This document shows positions 3,627 through 56,593 of a DNA stretch of 64,000 nucleotides, piece after piece. The translations under genes and the position numbers were made by a program. The stretch spans positions 89,946 through 153,945 of the forward strand of contig WION01000112.1 in assembly GCA_015039365.1 (NCBI GenBank). Reading direction: 5' to 3'. Within the stretch, counting starts at the first letter, position 1, and every line of letters starts with the position of its first letter. The stretch is from Amanita rubescens. Lineage: Eukaryota; Basidiomycota; Agaricomycetes; Agaricales; Amanitaceae. The notes under the pieces were generated by a model. The model was not told the origin of the DNA and ran no database searches. It worked only from the letters and a program-made list of their open reading frames with translations.

Positions 3627-3631
3627 CGATT
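3627..3631. repeat. target-site duplication CGATT (left)
   Basis: CGATT immediately precedes the 5' LTR and recurs immediately after the 3' LTR at 11458-11462. This is the 5-bp duplication expected from integrase-mediated insertion. Confidence 0.95.
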
Positions 3632-4117
3632 TGTTAAAGTTATCTTATCTAATCATATAAGATAACGTATATCTTATCTTATCTCATATAAGATAATACA
3701 TCATATCTTATCCTATAGATTAGGATATACAGATTAGATGTACATACATGCGTATATGTATTTACATACATATATACACGTACATATACATACATAGGAT
3801 ACTGGAATATCCTATAGTCGCTTGCGTCATCCCATTACTGTGGTAGACGCGTCATAGCTGTGCTAGACGTCATATCATACGTCATGCACAGCTCTTCCTC
3901 TATTTACTATACATTGTACTTATTAGGATACTAGTAGTATATAAGACTACCTGTACGTAGGTACAAATAAGAACCTTCCTTCTCCTCTTATCACCACATC
4001 CTATATCCATAGGATAGTGAGTTATCGTTCGAGGTCGTCACCGCCACTCTACACTCCACTCTAAGTAAGTATTCACTTTAATACTTAGACGCTGCGCTGC
4101 TGGGCGTATCTTCGTCA
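3632..4117 (+). repeat. 5' long terminal repeat (486 bp)
   Basis: Begins TGTTAAAGTT and ends CGTATCTTCGTCA. By eye it is identical to 10972-11457. It contains strong hairpins: arms 3639-3648/3657-3666 (10 bp), 3674-3682/3688-3696 (9 bp), 3794-3800/3809-3815 (7 bp) and 3998-4004/4009-4015 (7 bp). Confidence 0.97.
3938..3945 (+). promoter_or_regulatory. TATA box of the LTR promoter
   Basis: TATATAAG lies two thirds of the way through the LTR, the normal place for the U3 promoter. The 3' LTR copy is at 11278-11285. Transcription would start about 30 bp downstream, making the rest of the LTR R/U5. Confidence 0.6.
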
Positions 4118-4137
4118 GGTTATGGGCCCCGACATGG
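4118..4137 (+). other. primer-binding site, half-tRNA type (initiator tRNA-Met)
   Basis: GGTTATGGGCCC starts at the first base after the LTR. It is complementary to the anticodon stem-loop of eukaryotic initiator tRNA-Met (GGGCCCATAACC) and not to the 3' CCA end. Drosophila copia and relatives prime this way with a cleaved 5' half of the tRNA. The following bases CGACATGG would extend pairing toward the 5' side of the anticodon stem, but need the host tRNA sequence to confirm. Confidence 0.75.
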
Positions 4138-5144
4138 TATTGCTTGCATCACCATCGCCTCCAGGCATGTTACCATGCAAGATGTGTGAACAGGTATAGT
4201 ATTGTGCGGGTCGGAGACCTGAGTGGCATCCGTCAATTTAACTGAGTTCTTGTACCTGACATACGAGCTTATGACATGCGCCCGGACCCTAGGGCTTTAG
4301 GGGGATCTCCTTGCACCCAGGGATAAGGGTACCACCTATGTTTCTCAAGGCTGGCATGGCAACCTTGACCCCCACGGAGTTATACTTGCCCTCCGTGATG
4401 TGACTGGGGTATTCATGCACGATATTCCATTATAAGGCCCTTAGTGCCTTTAGTTACCGTATGTAGATCATATGGCCCGTAGTAACTTTCACAAAGTATA
4501 AAGGTCGTGCTGGGGTCCCATTGTGGACCATACACGCAGACTATTAGGCGTCCACTCCTAGAGAGCGCCTTAGATTAGCCGTTGGCTCTGCTCAAAAGGC
4601 ATCCACGTATACTTTCATATTGTTACTGGGAGTGCTTATAAAGGTGGTCACGGACGGTTTATGGACCGGACACCTTTCATTTTCCAAAGACAACTGGTAC
4701 CTTTTGGGACCAGGCAGTTGCCGCAGGCGCACTGCAGTCCGCGGACCTTATGCATGTCATACTCGTTTACAGGTCAGGCACACAAGTCTGGTACATGTTC
4801 CTCGGATCGATCCTGGTGCTAGGCATTATCATGCTTGGCTGTAGCTCATAACGCTGCACGCAAGGTCGTTGTCGTATTCGTTATGACACCCTCGCCTATG
4901 AAGTTGTTGTCGTTTATGTAATGACACCTTCATTAATAAAATCCTTAAAATAGATATAAATCATTGAATTTATAAATAATCCATCAAACGATCAATTGAT
5001 TTCATCTCAATCAATCGTTCCATCATCAAGAAGCAAGAAATAACATTTCTCGCTCACCCATTCCAATACAAGATCTACGCATCTTGTTCACCAACATTTC
5101 CATAAGGTTTTATATAAATAGAAACCTTTATCGACATTCTTGTC
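4138..5144 (+). other. retrotransposon leader between PBS and gag
   Basis: About 1 kb without a convincing ORF. The first part is mixed in composition; after about 4950 it is AT-rich. Hairpins just before gag include arms 5068-5074/5081-5087 (7 bp) and 5104-5110/5122-5128 (7 bp). A packaging signal is expected somewhere here by analogy with other LTR elements, but none can be pinpointed. Confidence 0.6.
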
Positions 5145-6293
5145 ATGTCTTCTTTTACCAAAGAAGAAGACAGCGCTTTATGTTCCCTTGTCACCGAATT
5201 ACAAGGAAACAATTATCGTGCCTGGGCACGACAAATAACGGCATACTTTCAGATCTCAAATCTGATGGTATTCATGTGTCCCGTTATCCCCAATGCAATC
5301 CCTGCTCACTTCAAAGCAGTAATTGCGCCGATCACTGCCACCAATAAGGCAGCAATCATCATACAAGCTGATGAGCTTGTACAAAACGAGAAGGCGTTAC
5401 ACGCCATTAAGCTCAGATTGTCCTTTACAATCTTTGAGCTTTATCAACACGTTTACAATGCAAGACTCCTATGGATGTTCTTGCAAGAACGTTACAAAGA
5501 TGATTCACCAGCAATCCTTGACGGATCACTGGACAAAATAGATCATGATCGATCTATAAATAAAATCATCACTCGTTATAGACACATAGCAGCACAGGGA
5601 CATCAATTCCCGGCTGCTCATCTAAATAAAGCACTTACGACCATCAGGGCTGTTCCATTAAAATGGATCAACCAAACAGCGGCTACATCATCCGTTACCG
5701 CTATCAATACGAATTACTCTAGCCCTAAGGCAGTTCGTTCAGGAAACACTGCCACACAAGTTGGACCGATCAGAGTCCAGCAACTTGCTAGTGAAATTCG
5801 TTCGGCATGGTCGTCACGGCATAAAGCTATAAACCAATTATCTCCGTCGACGCAAGACCCTAACTTGCATACGGAAAATTGTTTAGCTAATGCCTCCTTA
5901 ACAAACAAAGGCAAAGGCCGCTGCAGATGCTCGCCGCATCCACAGCCTACACATTTGCGCTGGGAAGACTTTAAAAATAGTAGCAAGCCTGATTATATCA
6001 GGGGAGGATCTCCACTATTAGTCAAACAGCCCGAATCTGATCCGGAATCAGATTCCACACATGATTCATTTAAATCATGTAAATCAAATGTTTCTACGCT
6101 TTCACCTTTGTCACACGAGCCTTTGACAGACTCGTTCAACACAAGAATAACAAATTCCCAGGAGGAATTTTATGATGCTCATGAAGATTTCGAGCGTCAT
6201 TATGGAAATTTCATGGCTATGAATAGCTATGATCAATGGGTAGAAGAACAATATAGCATAGACTTAGATTATTTCTGGAAGAAATATATGTAA
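5145..6293 (+). CDS. Copia-type Gag-like protein (382 aa)
   Basis: Structural capsid-like protein of the LTR element. The N-terminal third fits the Copia gag family (UBN2/Retrotran_gag_2): LQGNNYRAWARQITAYF near residues 19-35, then a helical core with LLWMFLQERYKDD and LDGSLDKID. Where a CCHC zinc knuckle is expected, about residues 254-266, it has CRCSPHPQPTH without the closing Cys, so the knuckle looks lost. The C-terminal third is Ser/Asp/Glu-rich and ends at a TAA, with no pol frame beyond it. The coding sequence also holds perfect hairpins (5362-5381, 5415-5433, 5477-5490, 6033-6055, 6059-6080). The start ATG 5145 is the first in the frame. Confidence 0.85.
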   Translation: MSSFTKEEDSALCSLVTELQGNNYRAWARQITAYFQISNLMVFMCPVIPNAIPAHFKAVIAPITATNKAAIIIQADELVQNEKALHAIKLRLSFTIFELYQHVYNARLLWMFLQERYKDDSPAILDGSLDKIDHDRSINKIITRYRHIAAQGHQFPAAHLNKALTTIRAVPLKWINQTAATSSVTAINTNYSSPKAVRSGNTATQVGPIRVQQLASEIRSAWSSRHKAINQLSPSTQDPNLHTENCLANASLTNKGKGRCRCSPHPQPTHLRWEDFKNSSKPDYIRGGSPLLVKQPESDPESDSTHDSFKSCKSNVSTLSPLSHEPLTDSFNTRITNSQEEFYDAHEDFERHYGNFMAMNSYDQWVEEQYSIDLDYFWKKYM

Positions 6294-6442
6294 TATATAA
6301 ATTGTCATCAAAACAAGAGTATCGTGAAGGATCACTCCTTATAAATCCGATTACTTGTCATACAATTTATATTCAAAATAAGGAAATCGTGTAGGCGTAT
6401 GCCTTGCAATCCCGATTACTTATAAATAAAGGTCTTTCTGGT

Positions 6443-8455
6443 GGTATTAGCAAGGATCATTATCATTGCCAAAATATACCGCGTTCAAGGGAATTTCGAT
6501 CACTTGAAGAAAGATCATCACGCTTGTCATCATATACAAGCATCAACACATATTATCTTCGTCAATTCAGAAATATCTATAATGTCTACACTATAAAAAC
6601 AATATCTTTAAAAGCTCTCCACATATGCAAACCGATGTCTATAGCCTATAGACGGCTATAATCTATTTGCAGATAACAGTAATGTGTTACCTTTGAGAAA
6701 GGTTCCTTGCCGTTGAAATAGCACGGTTTTGAAAACGTCTCATAATATGGTTTCCTACACTTGAGAAGGCTCCTTGCTGTTGAAATAGCACAGTCTTGAA
6801 AGTATCTCATAACACTGTAGTCGCAAAAGCAGTTTCAAACTGCTGAACATTATCTGTTGGAGATAACAAATTTCTTGGTATAAACACCGTCATTCTTTAA
6901 CGACGTTAGCAAGGATTTATCATCATTGCCAGAATACTGTCGCATACAAGGGAATTTCGATCACTTGTATAAGAATAGACTCCTATGCTTGTCCTTACAA
7001 GCATCTATAAACGTCCAGAGTATTTTTGTACTCAACCTATAAATTGAATTGTACGGCGGCGCCATGCGCTCATCCCCTTTTCATATTTAAAATAGGTTTT
7101 CCAATAACAGGACAGACGTAATTAAAATACCTCGAAATAATTCTTATAGCTTTAAGAATTGTGGATTATAATTCTAAATGATTATCTATAGGAACCAGAT
7201 CATCCTTGAGTGAAATACATGTACCATGACCAAATACGTTGACCAACGTTATTATGTTGGATAATGTATTGTGTGAAACACAAGAACGGTTACATCTTTT
7301 TATAAAGATGATAAATTGACGAAATCATTGATTTCTTTAAATACATGAAGATGATTTTTATAAATCATCACATGTTAAAATAAGAATACTGTTCATATCA
7401 CATCAATCTATATGTGATAATAGATCATGTCAAAAATATACATGATGCTATCAGGCTAAAACAAGCAATTACAATCCCTGTCTTGATTGAGGGGGAATCA
7501 TTGCAAAAAACAAGTACATTATGACTTGTAAATATGACCAATCAAAACAAGTATTCGATATAACTTGTATACAGATACAATCATGGATGCGTATTAGATA
7601 TAGGCCCATATTGTATATATTATGGTTGCGTATTAAACATAGGCCCATAATCATGGTCATCAACTGTATTAGAGGAGGAAGCTCCCTCGATAATATACAG
7701 ATGCCTGAACACGAACAAATATATGTATTGGAGTTTTATCCCCGTCTATTGTATAGAGAAGGCTCCTTGCCGTTGAAACTTATACGGTCTTGAAAGCGTC
7801 TCGTCTTTACAATATGACATTACACTCCTGACAAATATCCTAGTCAGGAACGTGTATTATATGGAATGCCAGGTTAATGCATATCTCAAATAAGCCTGTC
7901 TTATGGCTTATCGCAAATAACCTCACATATCCTCTCCATACATATAACAGTATTTCTTTATAAGAATCAATGGTAGCTTAAATCAAAAAGAAATAGTTAT
8001 GTTAAATCTTGCGCCAGTTCCTTTAAAAATACAGATTCCCAAATATCGTTCATATGATATTACGGTTGAATTGTTGGAATACATTTAGTTCCTTGCACAG
8101 ATCTTGGCCCTCAAAAGCTGAAGATAGGAACACCTTGCATACAAATTCAACACCCTCTTTAATTAACTCTAGTTCTTGGTCTCATCCGAACAATGGAGAA
8201 TTTCCTTACACAAGTTTTGACGGTTTTCAGGTTGGTTAGCAATATTTATATATTGTGGATCGCTTGGGGATACAGCAGACCCAATACTGCTACGAAAATA
8301 AACTTGTACAGGTCAATCTTTGGATAGGTAGCAATATTTATATATTGTGGGTTATTCAGGGACACAGCAGACACAATACTGCTATGACTTCGAAATATCG
8401 TTATGATCTTCCTGGCGGTATTAGCAAGGACATATTGTCATTGCCAAAATATACC
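6443..8455 (+). repeat. stem-loop module II, three dispersed copies
   Basis: Copies at 6443-6480, 6901-6942 and 8417-8455. The inner stem GCAA/TTGC is constant. The outer stem is GGTAT/ATACC in copies 1 and 3 but CGAC/GTCG in copy 2, so the pairing is kept while the sequence changes. Copies 1 and 2 are followed by the same 18 bases GGGAATTTCGATCACTTG. Confidence 0.75.
6695..7802 (+). repeat. stem-loop module I, three dispersed copies
   Basis: Copies at 6695-6741, 6763-6808 and 7756-7802, each framed by GAGA...TCTC. Between them lie AAGG..CCTT and a second stem: CCGT/ACGG in copies 1 and 3, CTGT/ACAG in copy 2. The C-G to T-A exchange on both sides keeps the pair. The rest of the module is well conserved. 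Confidence 0.75.
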
Positions 8456-9322
8456 GTATATGAATGAGCTTCGGCCAACTCATAAGGAGGATCTTTATAA
8501 ATAACGAATTTCGGTTTAATGTTGTCATTATACATTGAACATCAAAAAGGATATTCAAAATCATTCAACGAGACCTCCCTGATTATGTTCTATACTCTTA
8601 TTGCATCTGGATAATGCATAAAGATAAAATAGAACTAAGGAAGAACAAGAATTAACAGAGTTAAGAGGACATTACTTGCCAACGGACTACACGTAACAGA
8701 GGAATAATCCTTGTTTAAGGATTAATATAGGCTGTACTGAAAAGGAAACCTATATCGGATAACGTCGCAGTTATACCTTCCCAGTAGACGTGTTCATGTT
8801 GAATATATCGTCCAAAAAAGATAGTCATTGACACTTAAATGACTTAGAGGTCAAAATCTCGTTCATACGAGATATTATATAAGTGTTTGTTCTTCTATAC
8901 AAACACTTATAATTATGCTTGTCGTCAATACAAGTAAATCCTCTTCGTCGTAAGAATCTATATCAAAAATAGATTCAATATGCTATAATGGGGTGGCGCC
9001 TGCCTTGCGCAAATCCCCAAATATACAAGTATGAGTGAATGCAGAACGTCGATCGTTCTTGGATCCTCAATTAAAACTTGTCATGACAACGGTCGTATCC
9101 CTGTGGGTGTAGACCTTTAAAGTCATATTCGTATCTTGTATCCATACACAAGGTACAATAAATATAGCATATATATAAAACAAGAATAAACTTCTTGTAC
9201 ACAGTGTCTAACAAAGGATTACATCATTAATGATCGTCGGGTACGGCAGACACAATACTGCCAGCAAATTATCTTTATATTAAGATAAAATGCGCCGGGC
9301 ACTTATAGCAGTTCTTACTGCT
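6828..9322 (+). repeat. stem-loop module III, five dispersed copies
   Basis: Stem AGCAG/CTGCT at 6828-6844, 8274-8291, 8366-8383 and 9307-9322. At 9245-9262 it is GGCAG/CTGCC, a compensated outer pair. Loops of the middle copies read ACCCAATA or ACACAATA. The copies near 8240-8386 also share the preceding AGCAATATTTATATATTGTG. Confidence 0.7.
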
Positions 9323-10959
9323 GATCATCTATGGTAAAACCCTTTTATAATGATTACCAAGATATATTGCAAATGTGGATGACCACCACGTATAAGTCAA
9401 GTAGGGAATCATATCTGTATGAGCATCCAGTAAAATGTATCTGGATTCACTTACACGATTAAAACAAGAAAACTTATCACATATAAGCTCAAGTTTAATA
9501 ATCGTCACACATGCTCAGGAATTGGATAATGATGAAGTTCATTTCGTTATTACGAAATCAGGAGATTCGTCTCCCCGCTGGTGTTGTGCGTTCCTACCAA
9601 AATAGGGATATATGGAATCACAACCAAATAACAATCCTTTACAAAAGTGATTATAAAGGATTTAATGATATGCAAATCATCATACCAGACGGATTATCAT
9701 CATTTACAAAAGACAAGATATACACACATATCTATAGAAGGGAACAGTTGTTATTCAATAGCAGACGGGTCAATATGCTTATACAAGCATAAGTCCTTTA
9801 AAGACCCAAGGACTTCGATCTGCTGGATAACGAAGATATTCTTTAAGACACATGGTTGAACTCTTTATCGAAATTTAAAAAGGAGTTTTTATCGATATAA
9901 CAGAGATGTAAACCATGATGTATAAGAATTATCTGGGCAACCGTCTATAACATAATTCGCTTGTCGTTATACTTGTTTTTACAAGGACAAGCAATTATAT
10001 TAGACCACAATACGATTATACTTGTCATCACAAGTAAAATCGTCAAGCGTGCGACTTGTCGATCAAGTGAACACGCCACATCATATTCTCGTATTGCTGT
10101 GCAAAGAGAATATATACTCCTTTACCATTAAGGTGCTAGTCACCTTTACACCATATAAGGCGTTGGACGCCTTTAAACATAATAGGAGAACACACGAGTC
10201 AGCGTACATAATCAGGACTTGTAAAGAAACAAGGAATGATTATTGCACTCGTCACGCATACGAGCAGAGAGTATTTGCAAGGGAGGAAGCTCCCCTTGTA
10301 GAGATACTATACTCGTCTAAATAGTTCATTTAGGAAGACATGTCAAGTTTTTACTTGACAATGCGACATATACACACTCGCATATCCATCAGAGGATTCT
10401 TTTCACACAAAGAATCATCGTCATATATCTCGCTATTTACATAGCTTGATATTTATGCAAGTTGTTAAACGTTATCGTTTACCTGCCAAAAATATTCATT
10501 TAGCACTTAAGGATATATTCTTATCCTTTATTAAACAAAGTAATAAATCATATCAGAGACAGCGAAGGCAGTAGACCAAGCCCCTTCTCGATTAAATATG
10601 ATTTCACACACTTTGTAAGGCTTGAAGCCTGGGGGTGCTTTTATAATGGATATTATTAATATGACAGGAAACTCGATTTTTGATAAATCGATTCAAACAA
10701 TATACGTCATTGTATTGGCTTTTCGACAAAGTCATATCCTATACCTTTAGGATCAAACAATGATAAATATTGTATAACGTATACAACAAGCATTATAGGA
10801 ATATCAAAGAAATATATAATACAAGGGATTAAGGTGAAAGCAGCATATAGTCTGGATCCCCGTACTTGTACACGAAACGAGAGATCTTCCGTGAAGACTT
10901 TCAAGTCTTGCAATTCCGGTGACTCGTATAAAGATATTTCATATATTCCTGGATAACTT

Positions 10960-10971
10960 AGCGAGGGGGTG
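10960..10971 (+). other. polypurine tract
   Basis: AGCGAGGGGGTG directly abuts the 3' LTR, in the position where plus-strand DNA synthesis is primed. The G-run is the only such tract near the LTR edge. Confidence 0.7.
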
Positions 10972-11457
10972 TGTTAAAGTTATCTTATCTAATCATATAA
11001 GATAACGTATATCTTATCTTATCTCATATAAGATAATACATCATATCTTATCCTATAGATTAGGATATACAGATTAGATGTACATACATGCGTATATGTA
11101 TTTACATACATATATACACGTACATATACATACATAGGATACTGGAATATCCTATAGTCGCTTGCGTCATCCCATTACTGTGGTAGACGCGTCATAGCTG
11201 TGCTAGACGTCATATCATACGTCATGCACAGCTCTTCCTCTATTTACTATACATTGTACTTATTAGGATACTAGTAGTATATAAGACTACCTGTACGTAG
11301 GTACAAATAAGAACCTTCCTTCTCCTCTTATCACCACATCCTATATCCATAGGATAGTGAGTTATCGTTCGAGGTCGTCACCGCCACTCTACACTCCACT
11401 CTAAGTAAGTATTCACTTTAATACTTAGACGCTGCGCTGCTGGGCGTATCTTCGTCA
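10972..11457 (+). repeat. 3' long terminal repeat (486 bp)
   Basis: Same sequence as 3632-4117, offset by 7340 bp. No difference was seen on line-by-line comparison, so the insertion is recent. Confidence 0.97.
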
Positions 11458-11462
11458 CGATT
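11458..11462. repeat. target-site duplication CGATT (right)
   Basis: Matches 3627-3631 exactly and directly follows the TCA end of the 3' LTR. Confidence 0.95.
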
Positions 11463-43171: not shown

Positions 43172-44566
43172 CTAATAATCTCGTGGTGGCAGTTCCCTGT
43201 CAACACTGCAACCCTCTACAATAGAACGACATGCAACATGCTCGTTCAAATCTACTACCACGAGTTTCACGATGCCATTTTCTTCCAATACTCTTAAATC
43301 ATTCAACCGACGTAATGCTTCCAAAAATGGATCAGGTTCTTCTGGTTCATAAACGCCCAATATAATCTTGATCATCTTCAAATTCGGAAACATGCGCCGA
43401 ACTTGATGAAGGAGATTCGGAGATTCGAGAAATCCCAATAAGGATAATTGCTGCTCTAACAAATTCTTATAGAGTCTGAACTTGAACCGAAATTCCTGTA
43501 GAGCATTCGGCGAGGGCAGAGCGGACAACAGCTTCCACATGGCCGATACGAGTAAGGGTATCTTTGGTGTTGTGAAGGCATATCCGGTAAATCCAATGTA
43601 TACCATCCGAACGTTGGTACATTGGGTAACTTGAGTTGCTTCTAAATATCTTAGTGATTCATCTGTTGAAATTTACGCACTAAGATGTTAGATACTCGAC
43701 ACAAAAGTATGCTTACCGAGCGAGGTAAAGGTACCCGGCTTATCAAAGGTGATCAAAAGCTGCTCGATGGAATGGCCAATGTGATGTAAAAATCTCCAGG
43801 TCAAGGGATTGCAGGCCTCGGCAGCCGGGAGAACGGGGGGTCGAATATGGAAGGTCTGCACGGAAACGTCGAGGGATGGGTTAACCAAGGGATCCAATAC
43901 ATCTCTGAAAAGCGCGAGGGAGACGTTATCGAACATTCTGAACTGGAAAGGGCGACGAAATATAGATAAATGGCGCGAGAGGTCGGGCATTTTGTGGGAT
44001 CGCAATTTCCGGAGGGCAAGAGTTTTCACAGAAGGTGGAAGCCGGCTGAATAGCATCACGATGTCTTCCGTCTTCCACATACCGATGCCATCCAGCTGCA
44101 GATCGTGAATGTTCAATTGGAAGATAACATCCAGAACAGGGAGCGGTACGAGACGCCATCCAATTTTCCAGGTCGAATGTATCAATATGCTTAATGACTT
44201 GACGTTACGGAGGTTTGATGCCACCTGTGTCGGGTCTATATCATCGCGGTAGGGATAACGATAATGGAATAAGTCCAGGAGGTGAATCTCTTCGACGGCG
44301 GACGTAAAGCTGGTCCACGGCGCACCGGCAAGGTGCAAAAACTGGTCGAAACTCTTGTTCTTGGTGAACTCAAGGGTGGAGAATAGACAACAACGGCTTT
44401 TGACAAGGGTTCGTCTGCAAACGAGGCCAAAGGAGAGTAATGTCGATGTCTCGTCAAGGAGATCGATTATTTCGTCAAGAATTTCTGGAGGAAACAAGAC
44501 GGGCACGCGAGATGCAAGCATGTTGACTGGAAATTGAGCGTATGTGGGATTGTTTTGAGTGATCAT
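43172..44566 (-). CDS. F-box protein, left copy (446 aa)
   Basis: Probable substrate receptor of an SCF ubiquitin ligase. Exons 43717-44566 and 43172-43662. Residues about 23-60 form the F-box (LFPPEILDEIIDLLDE, LSFGLVCRRTLVKSR), followed by a leucine-rich region typical of mushroom F-box/LRR proteins (VKSLSIL, LDVIFQLNIHDLQLDGIG, VKTLALRKLRSH). The intron (43663-43716) is identical in place to that of the right copy. The frame is open throughout. Target unknown. Confidence 0.85.
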
Positions 44567-55198: not shown

Positions 55199-56593
55199 AT
55201 GATCACTCAAAACAATCCCACATACGCTCAATTTCCAGTCCACATGCTCGTATCTCGCGCGCCCATCTTGTTCCCTCCAGAGATTCTCGACGAAATAATT
55301 GATCTCCTTGACGAGACATCGACATTACTCTCCTTCGGCCTCGTTTGCAGACGAACCCTTGTCAAAAGCCGTTGTTGTCTATTCTCCACCCTTGAGTTCA
55401 CCAAGAACAAGAGTTTCGACCAGTTTTTGCACCTTGCCGGTGCGCCGTGGACCAGCTTTACGTCCGCCGTCGAAGAGATTCACCTCCTGGACTTATTCCA
55501 TTATCGTTATCCCTACCGCGATGATATAGACCCGACACAGGTGGCATCAAACCTCCGTAACGTCAAGTCACTAAGCATATTGTTACATTCGAACTGGAAA
55601 ATTGGATGGCGTCTCGTACCGCTCCCTGTTCTGGATGTTATCTTCCAATTGGACATTCACGATCTGCAGCTGGATGGCATCGGTTTGTGGAAGACGGAAG
55701 ACATCGTGATGCTGTTCAGCCGGCTTCCACCTTCTGTGAAAACCCTTGCCCTCCGGAAAATGCGATCCCACGAAATGCCCGACCTCTCGCGCCATTTATC
55801 TATATTTCGTCGCCCTTTACAGTTCAGAATGTTCGACAACGTCTCCCTCGCGCTTTTCAAAAATGTATTGGATCCCTTGGTTAACCCGTCCCTCGACGTT
55901 TCCGTGCAGGCCTTCCATATTCGACCCCCCGCTCTCCCGGCTGCCGAGGCCTGCAATCCCTTGACCTGGAGATTTTTACATCACGTTGGCCATTGCATCG
56001 AGCAGCTTTTGATCACCTTTGATAAGCCGAGTACCTTTGCCTCGCTCGGTAAGCATACTTTTGTGTCGAGTATCTAACATCTTAGTGCGTAAATTTCAAC
56101 AGATGAATCACTAGGATATTTAGAAGCAACTCAAGTTACCCAATGTACCAACGTTCGGATGGTATACATTGGATTTACCGGATATGCCTTCACGACACCA
56201 AAGTTACCATTACTCGTATCGGCCATGTGGAAGATGCTGTCCGCTCTGCCCTCGCCGGGAGCTCTACAGGAATTTCGGTTCAAGCTCAGACCCTTTAAGA
56301 ATTTGTTAGAGCAGCAATTATCCTCATTGGGATTTCTCGAATCTCCGAATCTCCTTCATCAAGTTCGGCGCATGTTTCCGAATTTGAAGATGATCAAGAT
56401 TATATTGGGCGTTTATGAACCAGAAGAATCTGAACCATTTTTGGAAGCATTACGTCGGTTGAATGATTTGAGAGTATTGGAAGAAAATGGCATCCTGAAA
56501 CTCGTGGTAGTAGATTTGAATGAGCATGTTGCATGTCGTTCTATTGTAGAGGGTTGCAGTGTTGACAGGGAACTGCCAGCACGAGATTATTAG
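55199..56593 (+). CDS. F-box protein, right copy (446 aa)
   Basis: Mirror copy of 43172-44566 with exons 55199-56048 and 56103-56593. It has the same length and intron, and scattered substitutions (MLVSRAPILF for MLASRVPVLF, IGLWKTED for IGMWKTED, RKMRSHE for RKLRSHK). The F-box and leucine-rich region are intact. Two intact copies imply a recent duplication; divergence of function is not evident. Confidence 0.85.

Follow-up and report, generated by a model that had tools for sequence, protein, structure and literature searches.

A long terminal repeat (LTR) retrotransposon occupies positions 3632-11457 of a 64,000-nucleotide stretch of Amanita rubescens DNA (assembly GCA_015039365.1, contig WION01000112.1, forward-strand positions 89,946 to 153,945; hereafter the window), and its sequence is crowded with short perfect inverted repeats. 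An earlier note, made from the window alone, asked whether the RNA of this element is selected to fold along its whole length or whether an unusual replication process keeps producing snap-back repeats. The element is a recent, non-autonomous Copia-type retrotransposon; a large part of its RNA is probably maintained in folded form, a feature known from some RNA viruses, and the hairpin trait belongs, among the loci sampled, to a Copia lineage wider than the element itself.

Perfect stems were defined by arms of at least 7 bp and loops of 3-15 nt, with overlapping stems counted, and were compared with 100 dinucleotide shuffles (20 for the right flank). The whole element contained 71 stems against 7.26 in the shuffles, a number reached by 0/100, and all of its parts were raised: 12 against 0.84 in the LTR, 5 against 0.82 in the leader (reached in 1/100 shuffles), 10 against 0.67 in the gag-like frame and 32 against 5.4 in the non-coding interior. 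The right flank (52.5 kb) behaved as its composition predicts, with 35 stems against 34.75 (reached by 10/20 shuffles), and the left flank had 4 against 2.2 (18/100). The eleven hairpins given there as examples were all recovered with the same ends and arm lengths, namely (arm in bp) 3639-3666 (10), 3674-3696 (9), 5362-5381 (8), 6033-6055 (9), 6059-6080 (8), 7350-7369 (8), 8878-8911 (13), 8954-8976 (8), 9791-9815 (8), 10341-10360 (8) and 10395-10416 (8). The observation is real and was understated; the excess stands, and the estimate of about 30 inverted repeats gives way to 57 stems even when overlapping ones are set aside.

An origin by chance or composition could be suspected in an AT-rich element (GC 0.375) whose LTR contains ATACAT-like simple repeats, with AT-richness, microsatellites or other repeats producing the stems. 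Trinucleotide shuffles (n=100) left the excess in place, both in the internal part (47 against 6.9, maximum 15) and in the LTR (12 against 1.06, maximum 5). Synonymous-codon shuffles of gag gave 1.0 stems against the observed 10 (0/60 reach), so that neither amino acids nor codon use accounts for its hairpins. Inverted 7-mers separated by 3-8 nt numbered 33 against 2.3, whereas direct 7-mers at the same gaps numbered 2 against 3.0. Given the shuffles, the direct-repeat control and the nearly stemless RVT_1 frames described below, composition and simple repeats were rejected, and we regard this explanation as extremely improbable.

The excess of inverted repeats lay chiefly at gaps of 3 to about 20 nt and was slight beyond (8 against 5.0 at 21-30 nt, 308 against 255 at 401-1000 nt); direct repeats were also somewhat raised at longer gaps (23 against 10.3 at 41-60 nt). 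At gaps of 0-2 nt inverted 7-mers were less raised (4 against 1.7 in the element, 6 against 1.5 in the related locus L029), as hairpins of a single strand would require, and palindromic protein-binding sites were rejected because these gaps are little enriched in the element. Packaging signals carried by a loop motif were likewise rejected, since the loops, judged by eye, are mutually unlike and fast-changing. Among known RNA families, Rfam returned 15 weak matches, 14/15 of them on the LTRs and none at gathering score. The words ACAAG and CTTGT, which recur in hairpin arms, occur 29 and 24 times in 4118-10971 (13.2 expected together); they are outside the top five-letter words of the L029 and L030 frames.

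Folding energies gave a concordant picture. In 150-nt windows the mean z-score was -2.39 for the element, with 59/103 overlapping windows below -2, and 0.03 for the rest of the window (10/187 below -2). Saturation from end to end, as first described, overstates the case: in three stretches (windows starting at 4082-4532, 6482-6782 and 7907-8132) z was near zero (-1.0 to 0.3). When folding excess was computed at 350 nt, the element (20 fragments) gave 30.8% and the RNA phage MS2 30.2%, compared with -0.3% for 12-24 kb of the window. The perfect stems of MS2 numbered 8 against 2.4 in shuffles, about threefold chance, whereas those of the element, which unlike MS2 is not an RNA virus, reach about tenfold.

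Whether the trait is private to this element could not be seen from the window, and the genome (75.7 Mb, 786 contigs) supplied the copies and the Copia and RVT_1 loci used for comparison. Four Copia loci with frames of about 2000 codons, one per clade and with reverse transcriptase (RT) domains 70-78% identical to the first, are presumably autonomous, given their open frames with RVT_2. Each was examined with 60 dinucleotide and 60 synonymous-codon shuffles, neither of which ever reached the observed number (0/60): L029 had 24 stems (4.2 and 5.8, respectively), L030 20 (4.6 and 5.3), L042 21 (6.8 and 8.1) and L043 28 (6.1 and 6.2). Four further RT loci with frames of about 2000 codons agree (21-25 stems against about 3). 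Two distant Copia frames (RT identity 41-46%) showed no clear excess, with 5 stems against 2.4 in L044 (5/60 reach) and 4 against 3.2 in L045 (22/60); the whole L045 stretch had 9 against 3.8 (0/60). Six RVT_1 frames contained 0-3 stems against 1.0-2.0, and the whole stretch of one of them, L037, 5 against 2.2 (3/60 reach). The RVT_1 frames of L035-L037 have the same GC as those of L029 and L030 (0.41), but 0-1 stems.

Folding excess at 350 nt followed the same division: 20.6-26.3% in the L029, L030, L042 and L043 frames, -0.4 and 2.2% in L044 and L045, and 0.3-9.3% on the sense strand of the six RVT_1 frames. Three of the latter (L035, L036 and L037) combine their near absence of perfect stems with a mild folding excess (6.5-9.3%), so they may have weak structure that lacks perfect hairpins. 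Most hairpin positions change from one lineage to another; coincidence among the four structured clades was near chance in 4/6 pairs and above it in L029/L030 (11 against 3.2) and L042/L043 (7 against 3.2). Relatives were sought in viral contigs with the L042 protein and with an RT alignment, with 0 found by either; part of the L042 protein, used as the query of a further search, had a single match, at 43%.

The window copy was aligned with 21 others (22 in total), each of which carries 49-73 stems of arm 7 or more, the lowest number belonging to the incomplete L023. In the non-coding interior, compensated pair types occurred in 10/221 stem pairs, against a mean of 1.68 (maximum 6) in 200 draws of matched isolated pairs, and one-sided changes were depleted (30 non-wobble breaks against 57 in the control; 9 wobble changes against 20). 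Position pair 6991/6998 is G-C in 11 copies and A-T in 10, stem 9541-9558 contains two compensated pairs, and 6639/6651 is C-G in 8 copies, C-A in 7, T-A in 5 and T-G in 1, with a one-step mismatched intermediate still present. A comparable pair in the leader, 4375/4395, is C-G in 9/21 and T-A in 11/21 copies. Two folded modules, chosen by eye, recur within the interior: between the copies of module A three inner-stem pairs are compensated and mismatches fall in the outer helix, and in module B two pairs are compensated while a third has changed on one side only.

Loops and arms also differ in how they vary. Within the non-coding part, private changes amounted to 0.057 per site in stems, 0.168 in loops and 0.099 elsewhere. 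In 13 of the 22 copies (the window element and 12 of L009-L027) the two LTRs are fully identical over at least 474 bases, while the median internal divergence is 3.5%; the differences would largely predate insertion and have arisen during cycles of transcription and copying, and many source lineages would have been active very recently. Private and shared variation per site in these 13 copies was 0.124 and 0.110 in loops, 0.032 and 0.048 in stems, and 0.061 and 0.065 in the rest.

The main rival to selection is a mutational process, in which the strand being synthesised by the reverse transcriptase of this Copia lineage folds back on itself, or jumps to the opposite arm, and copies that arm, so that imperfect inverted repeats become perfect hairpins without selection. 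Several observations are as expected from it: the hairpin property tracks the RT lineage among sampled loci, pairs are strictly Watson-Crick with no preference for G-U, loops change faster than the rest, and in most comparisons the amino acids encoded by stem codons are somewhat less conserved than the others (for example, 0.21 against 0.31 for L042 against L044). Against such copying, several compensated pairs have one-step mismatched intermediates in other copies, as at 6639/6651, which points to stepwise change. The distribution of stem variants in 4118-10971 speaks against it as well (L023 excluded before position 5500, each side of a compensated pair counted once): Watson-Crick pairing was preserved by 22/27 variants shared by at least 4 copies, by 3/13 shared by 2-3 and by 3/36 private ones, the breaking variants being correspondingly 5/27, 10/13 and 33/36, as filtering would give. 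Among the 13 copies whose two LTRs are identical, the preserving variants were 23/31 of the shared and 1/21 of the private. Selection is favoured over arm-to-arm copying by the intermediates of stepwise change and by the fact that few breaking variants are widely shared, and the small sense-strand folding bias described next also speaks against the latter, which we consider unlikely.

Selection could also act on a different molecule, either a transcript of the antisense strand or the minus-strand complementary DNA while it is single-stranded in the particle. Mismatch types are strand-symmetric or slightly rich in A-C, which in the antisense strand corresponds to G-U. The sense strand nevertheless folded slightly better than the antisense (pooled difference -0.26 +- 0.07 z over 254 windows). 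All four long Copia frames showed this bias, as did the leader and the non-coding part of the element, whereas gag and the LTR showed none; selection on another molecule seems to us more doubtful still than snap-back copying.

Several results weigh against selection on the sense RNA. The sense bias is small and absent from gag and LTR, and five RVT_1 control frames span +0.06 to -0.36; the mild folding excess of three RVT_1 frames noted above belongs here as well. Compensated pairs were absent from gag stems (0/69 pairs, control 0.72) and not clearly above control in the 5' LTR (11 against 7.4, counts that include L021-L023, which align poorly there) or the leader (3 against 1.9). Insertions and deletions, alignment slips included, were no rarer in stems (48/650 nt) than in loops (23/282 nt). 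Stems with one mismatch showed no G-U preference (G-T 25, 9.0 expected; A-C 27, 12.5 expected), and among copies A-C breaks exceeded G-T in non-coding stems (19 against 9 types); L021-L023 were excluded from the mismatch-type counts of LTR and leader. In MS2 the same G-T/A-C comparison gave 7 against 5, likewise no clear difference, so that mismatch type is a weak test and does not separate the hypotheses.

Selection for folding is favoured by the compensatory changes and free loop change in the non-coding part, together with a folding excess comparable to the one in an RNA genome known to be structured. The interior has no recognisable coding, yet its pairing is kept, which argues that selection most likely acts on the fold itself. 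On this sequence evidence the genomic RNA of the element is likely to be under selection to remain a chain of short local hairpins, that is, a genome-scale ordered RNA structure (GORS). Pairing as such, rather than any single hairpin, would be what counts; the folded RNA may be packed into particles made by an L029-type partner, and the benefit may lie in compaction for packaging and in shielding from RNA silencing. The two possibilities of the earlier note were in this way partly supported: selection on the fold fits best and snap-back replication less well, with covariation of the arms borne out in the non-coding part and not in gag, LTR or leader, and the membership of the trait in a Copia lineage was invisible from the window alone. 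Neither outcome that the note had named as refuting was obtained: the shuffles fell far short of the observed stem numbers, and in the non-coding part the arms did not mutate independently.

Comparable structure is known from RNA viruses. In one account of GORS (PMC7642675), folding excess extends across most of the genome, and short-range stem-loops are numerous within coding sequence; variation is lower at paired sites, and positions are poorly conserved between relatives, with turnover in coronavirus too. The values given there are 7.5-10.7% for hepatitis C virus, about 15% for SARS-CoV-2 and 23.4% at the highest. The element and its Copia lineage resemble this description in a folding excess over most of the sequence, abundant short stem-loops inside coding frames, less variable arms and turnover of position. 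They differ from it in being a fungal LTR retrotransposon lineage, in an excess of 21-31% (obtained with a shuffle routine that differs from that of PMC7642675), and in non-coding arms that covary in place between close copies. Structured transcripts of vertebrate viruses are reported to be less recognised by innate sensors in fibroblasts (PMC3950689).

Among retrotransposons, PMC7215508 describes the large retrotransposon derivative (LARD) Sukkula of the Triticeae, in which LTRs enclose a long non-coding interior with 'well-conserved RNA secondary structures' and which relies on a partner. The element shares the long non-coding interior with conserved RNA structure and, probably, the partner dependence, but keeps a gag frame, and is for that reason not a LARD by definition; its long-frame relatives are structured too. 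For the yeast elements Ty1 and Ty3, PMC11381356 reports dispersed structured regions, with low-SHAPE (selective 2'-hydroxyl acylation analysed by primer extension), low-entropy regions making up to 30% of the RNA; these too are LTR retrotransposon RNAs with structured regions, a likeness drawn from the published SHAPE data. No description of RNA structure such as that found here in an LTR retrotransposon surfaced in the literature searched, most subscription papers being beyond reach.

LTR elements that retain only gag form a described group in plants, TR-GAG; the element is like them in keeping gag without pol, and unlike them in its long structured interior and fungal host. Its coordinates are collected in the table below. 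The termini are those of an LTR retrotransposon, with TG..CA ends, an identical 486-bp pair and CGATT flanking both sides, and the 14-nt primer site is complementary to the anticodon arm in 4/4 genes for transfer RNA (tRNA)-Met found in the genome, which we take to be of the initiator type. Half-tRNA primer sites of initiator Met are common in Copia/Ty5. Residues 7-182 of the gag product are about 45% identical to the beginning of Copia frames that are 2033 codons long and carry RVT_2; two Pfam matches to Copia gag (E 0.036 and 0.04) both fell below the cut-off, and the best protein match was a hypothetical protein of Amanita rubescens (96%). The frame is stop-free in 25/27 rows spanning residues 1-381/382, some further copies matching only in pieces.

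Six Copia frames found no pol similarity in 6294-10971 by tblastn at E<=0.1, a result on which the interior was rejected as decayed pol and the element taken as a non-autonomous derivative without its own protease, integrase and RT. Its similarity to L029 covers portions of the LTR ends, the beginning of the leader, the primer site and the region of the purine tract and does not extend to pol, an organisation typical of elements that depend on enzymes supplied by a partner. With pieces counted, the first 2.4 kb of the element has at least 41 matches in the genome and the interior at least 32. A 98% match to the LTR alone (G000:C55:84306-84791) is possibly a solo LTR, and a metagenome protein (P0004, on a 1775-bp contig) is 58% identical to gag across 61% of its length, so the family has relatives elsewhere. 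Elsewhere in the window, two open reading frames (ORFs) of 292 aa at 43688-44566 (-) and 55199-56077 (+), near-identical by eye, resemble an inverted gene duplication.

Table. Features of the Copia-type element and its flanking duplications, in window coordinates.
Feature	Position	Strand	Remarks
Left target-site duplication, 5 bp	3627..3631	no strand	CGATT
5' LTR, 486 bp	3632..4117	+	TG...CA; identical to 3' LTR; 12 perfect stems of arm >=7, some overlapping
Primer binding site (half-tRNA primer), 14 nt	4118..4131	+	exact complement to tRNA-Met anticodon stem-loop
Leader	4118..5144	+	first 428 bases 77% identical to L029 leader; folding excess mainly from ~4830 on
gag-like ORF, 382 aa	5145..6293	+	10 stems of arm >=7
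Non-coding interior, 4.7 kb	6294..10971	+	32 stems of arm >=7; compensatory changes among copies
Repeated folded module A	6428..6512, 6875-6976, 8408-8492	+	chosen by eye
Repeated folded module B	6692..6740, 6763-6811, 7757-7806	+	chosen by eye
Longest hairpin, 13-bp arms, loop 8	8878..8911	+	arms identical in 22/22 copies; loop in 5 versions
Purine-rich tract region preceding 3' LTR	10943..10971	+	29 bases at 90% identity to L029
3' LTR	10972..11457	+	
Right target-site duplication	11458..11462	no strand	CGATT

A wider reading, which we put forward only tentatively from the same sequence comparisons, is that throughout this Copia lineage the genomic RNA is kept folded to the degree seen in an RNA phage, that the 4.7-kb interior may function solely as folded RNA of the right size, and that packing or escape from silencing would read the fold and not the sequence. 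The purpose of genome-scale RNA structure in RNA viruses is unsettled, and coding limits its study there; if the proposal is true, the element would offer a natural experiment on the effects that RNA structure by itself has in a retrotransposon. A Copia family with structured RNA, largely unstructured RVT_1 controls in the same genome and a non-coding interior that keeps its pairing would together make the function of folding testable, whether in packaging, in escape from silencing or in copying.

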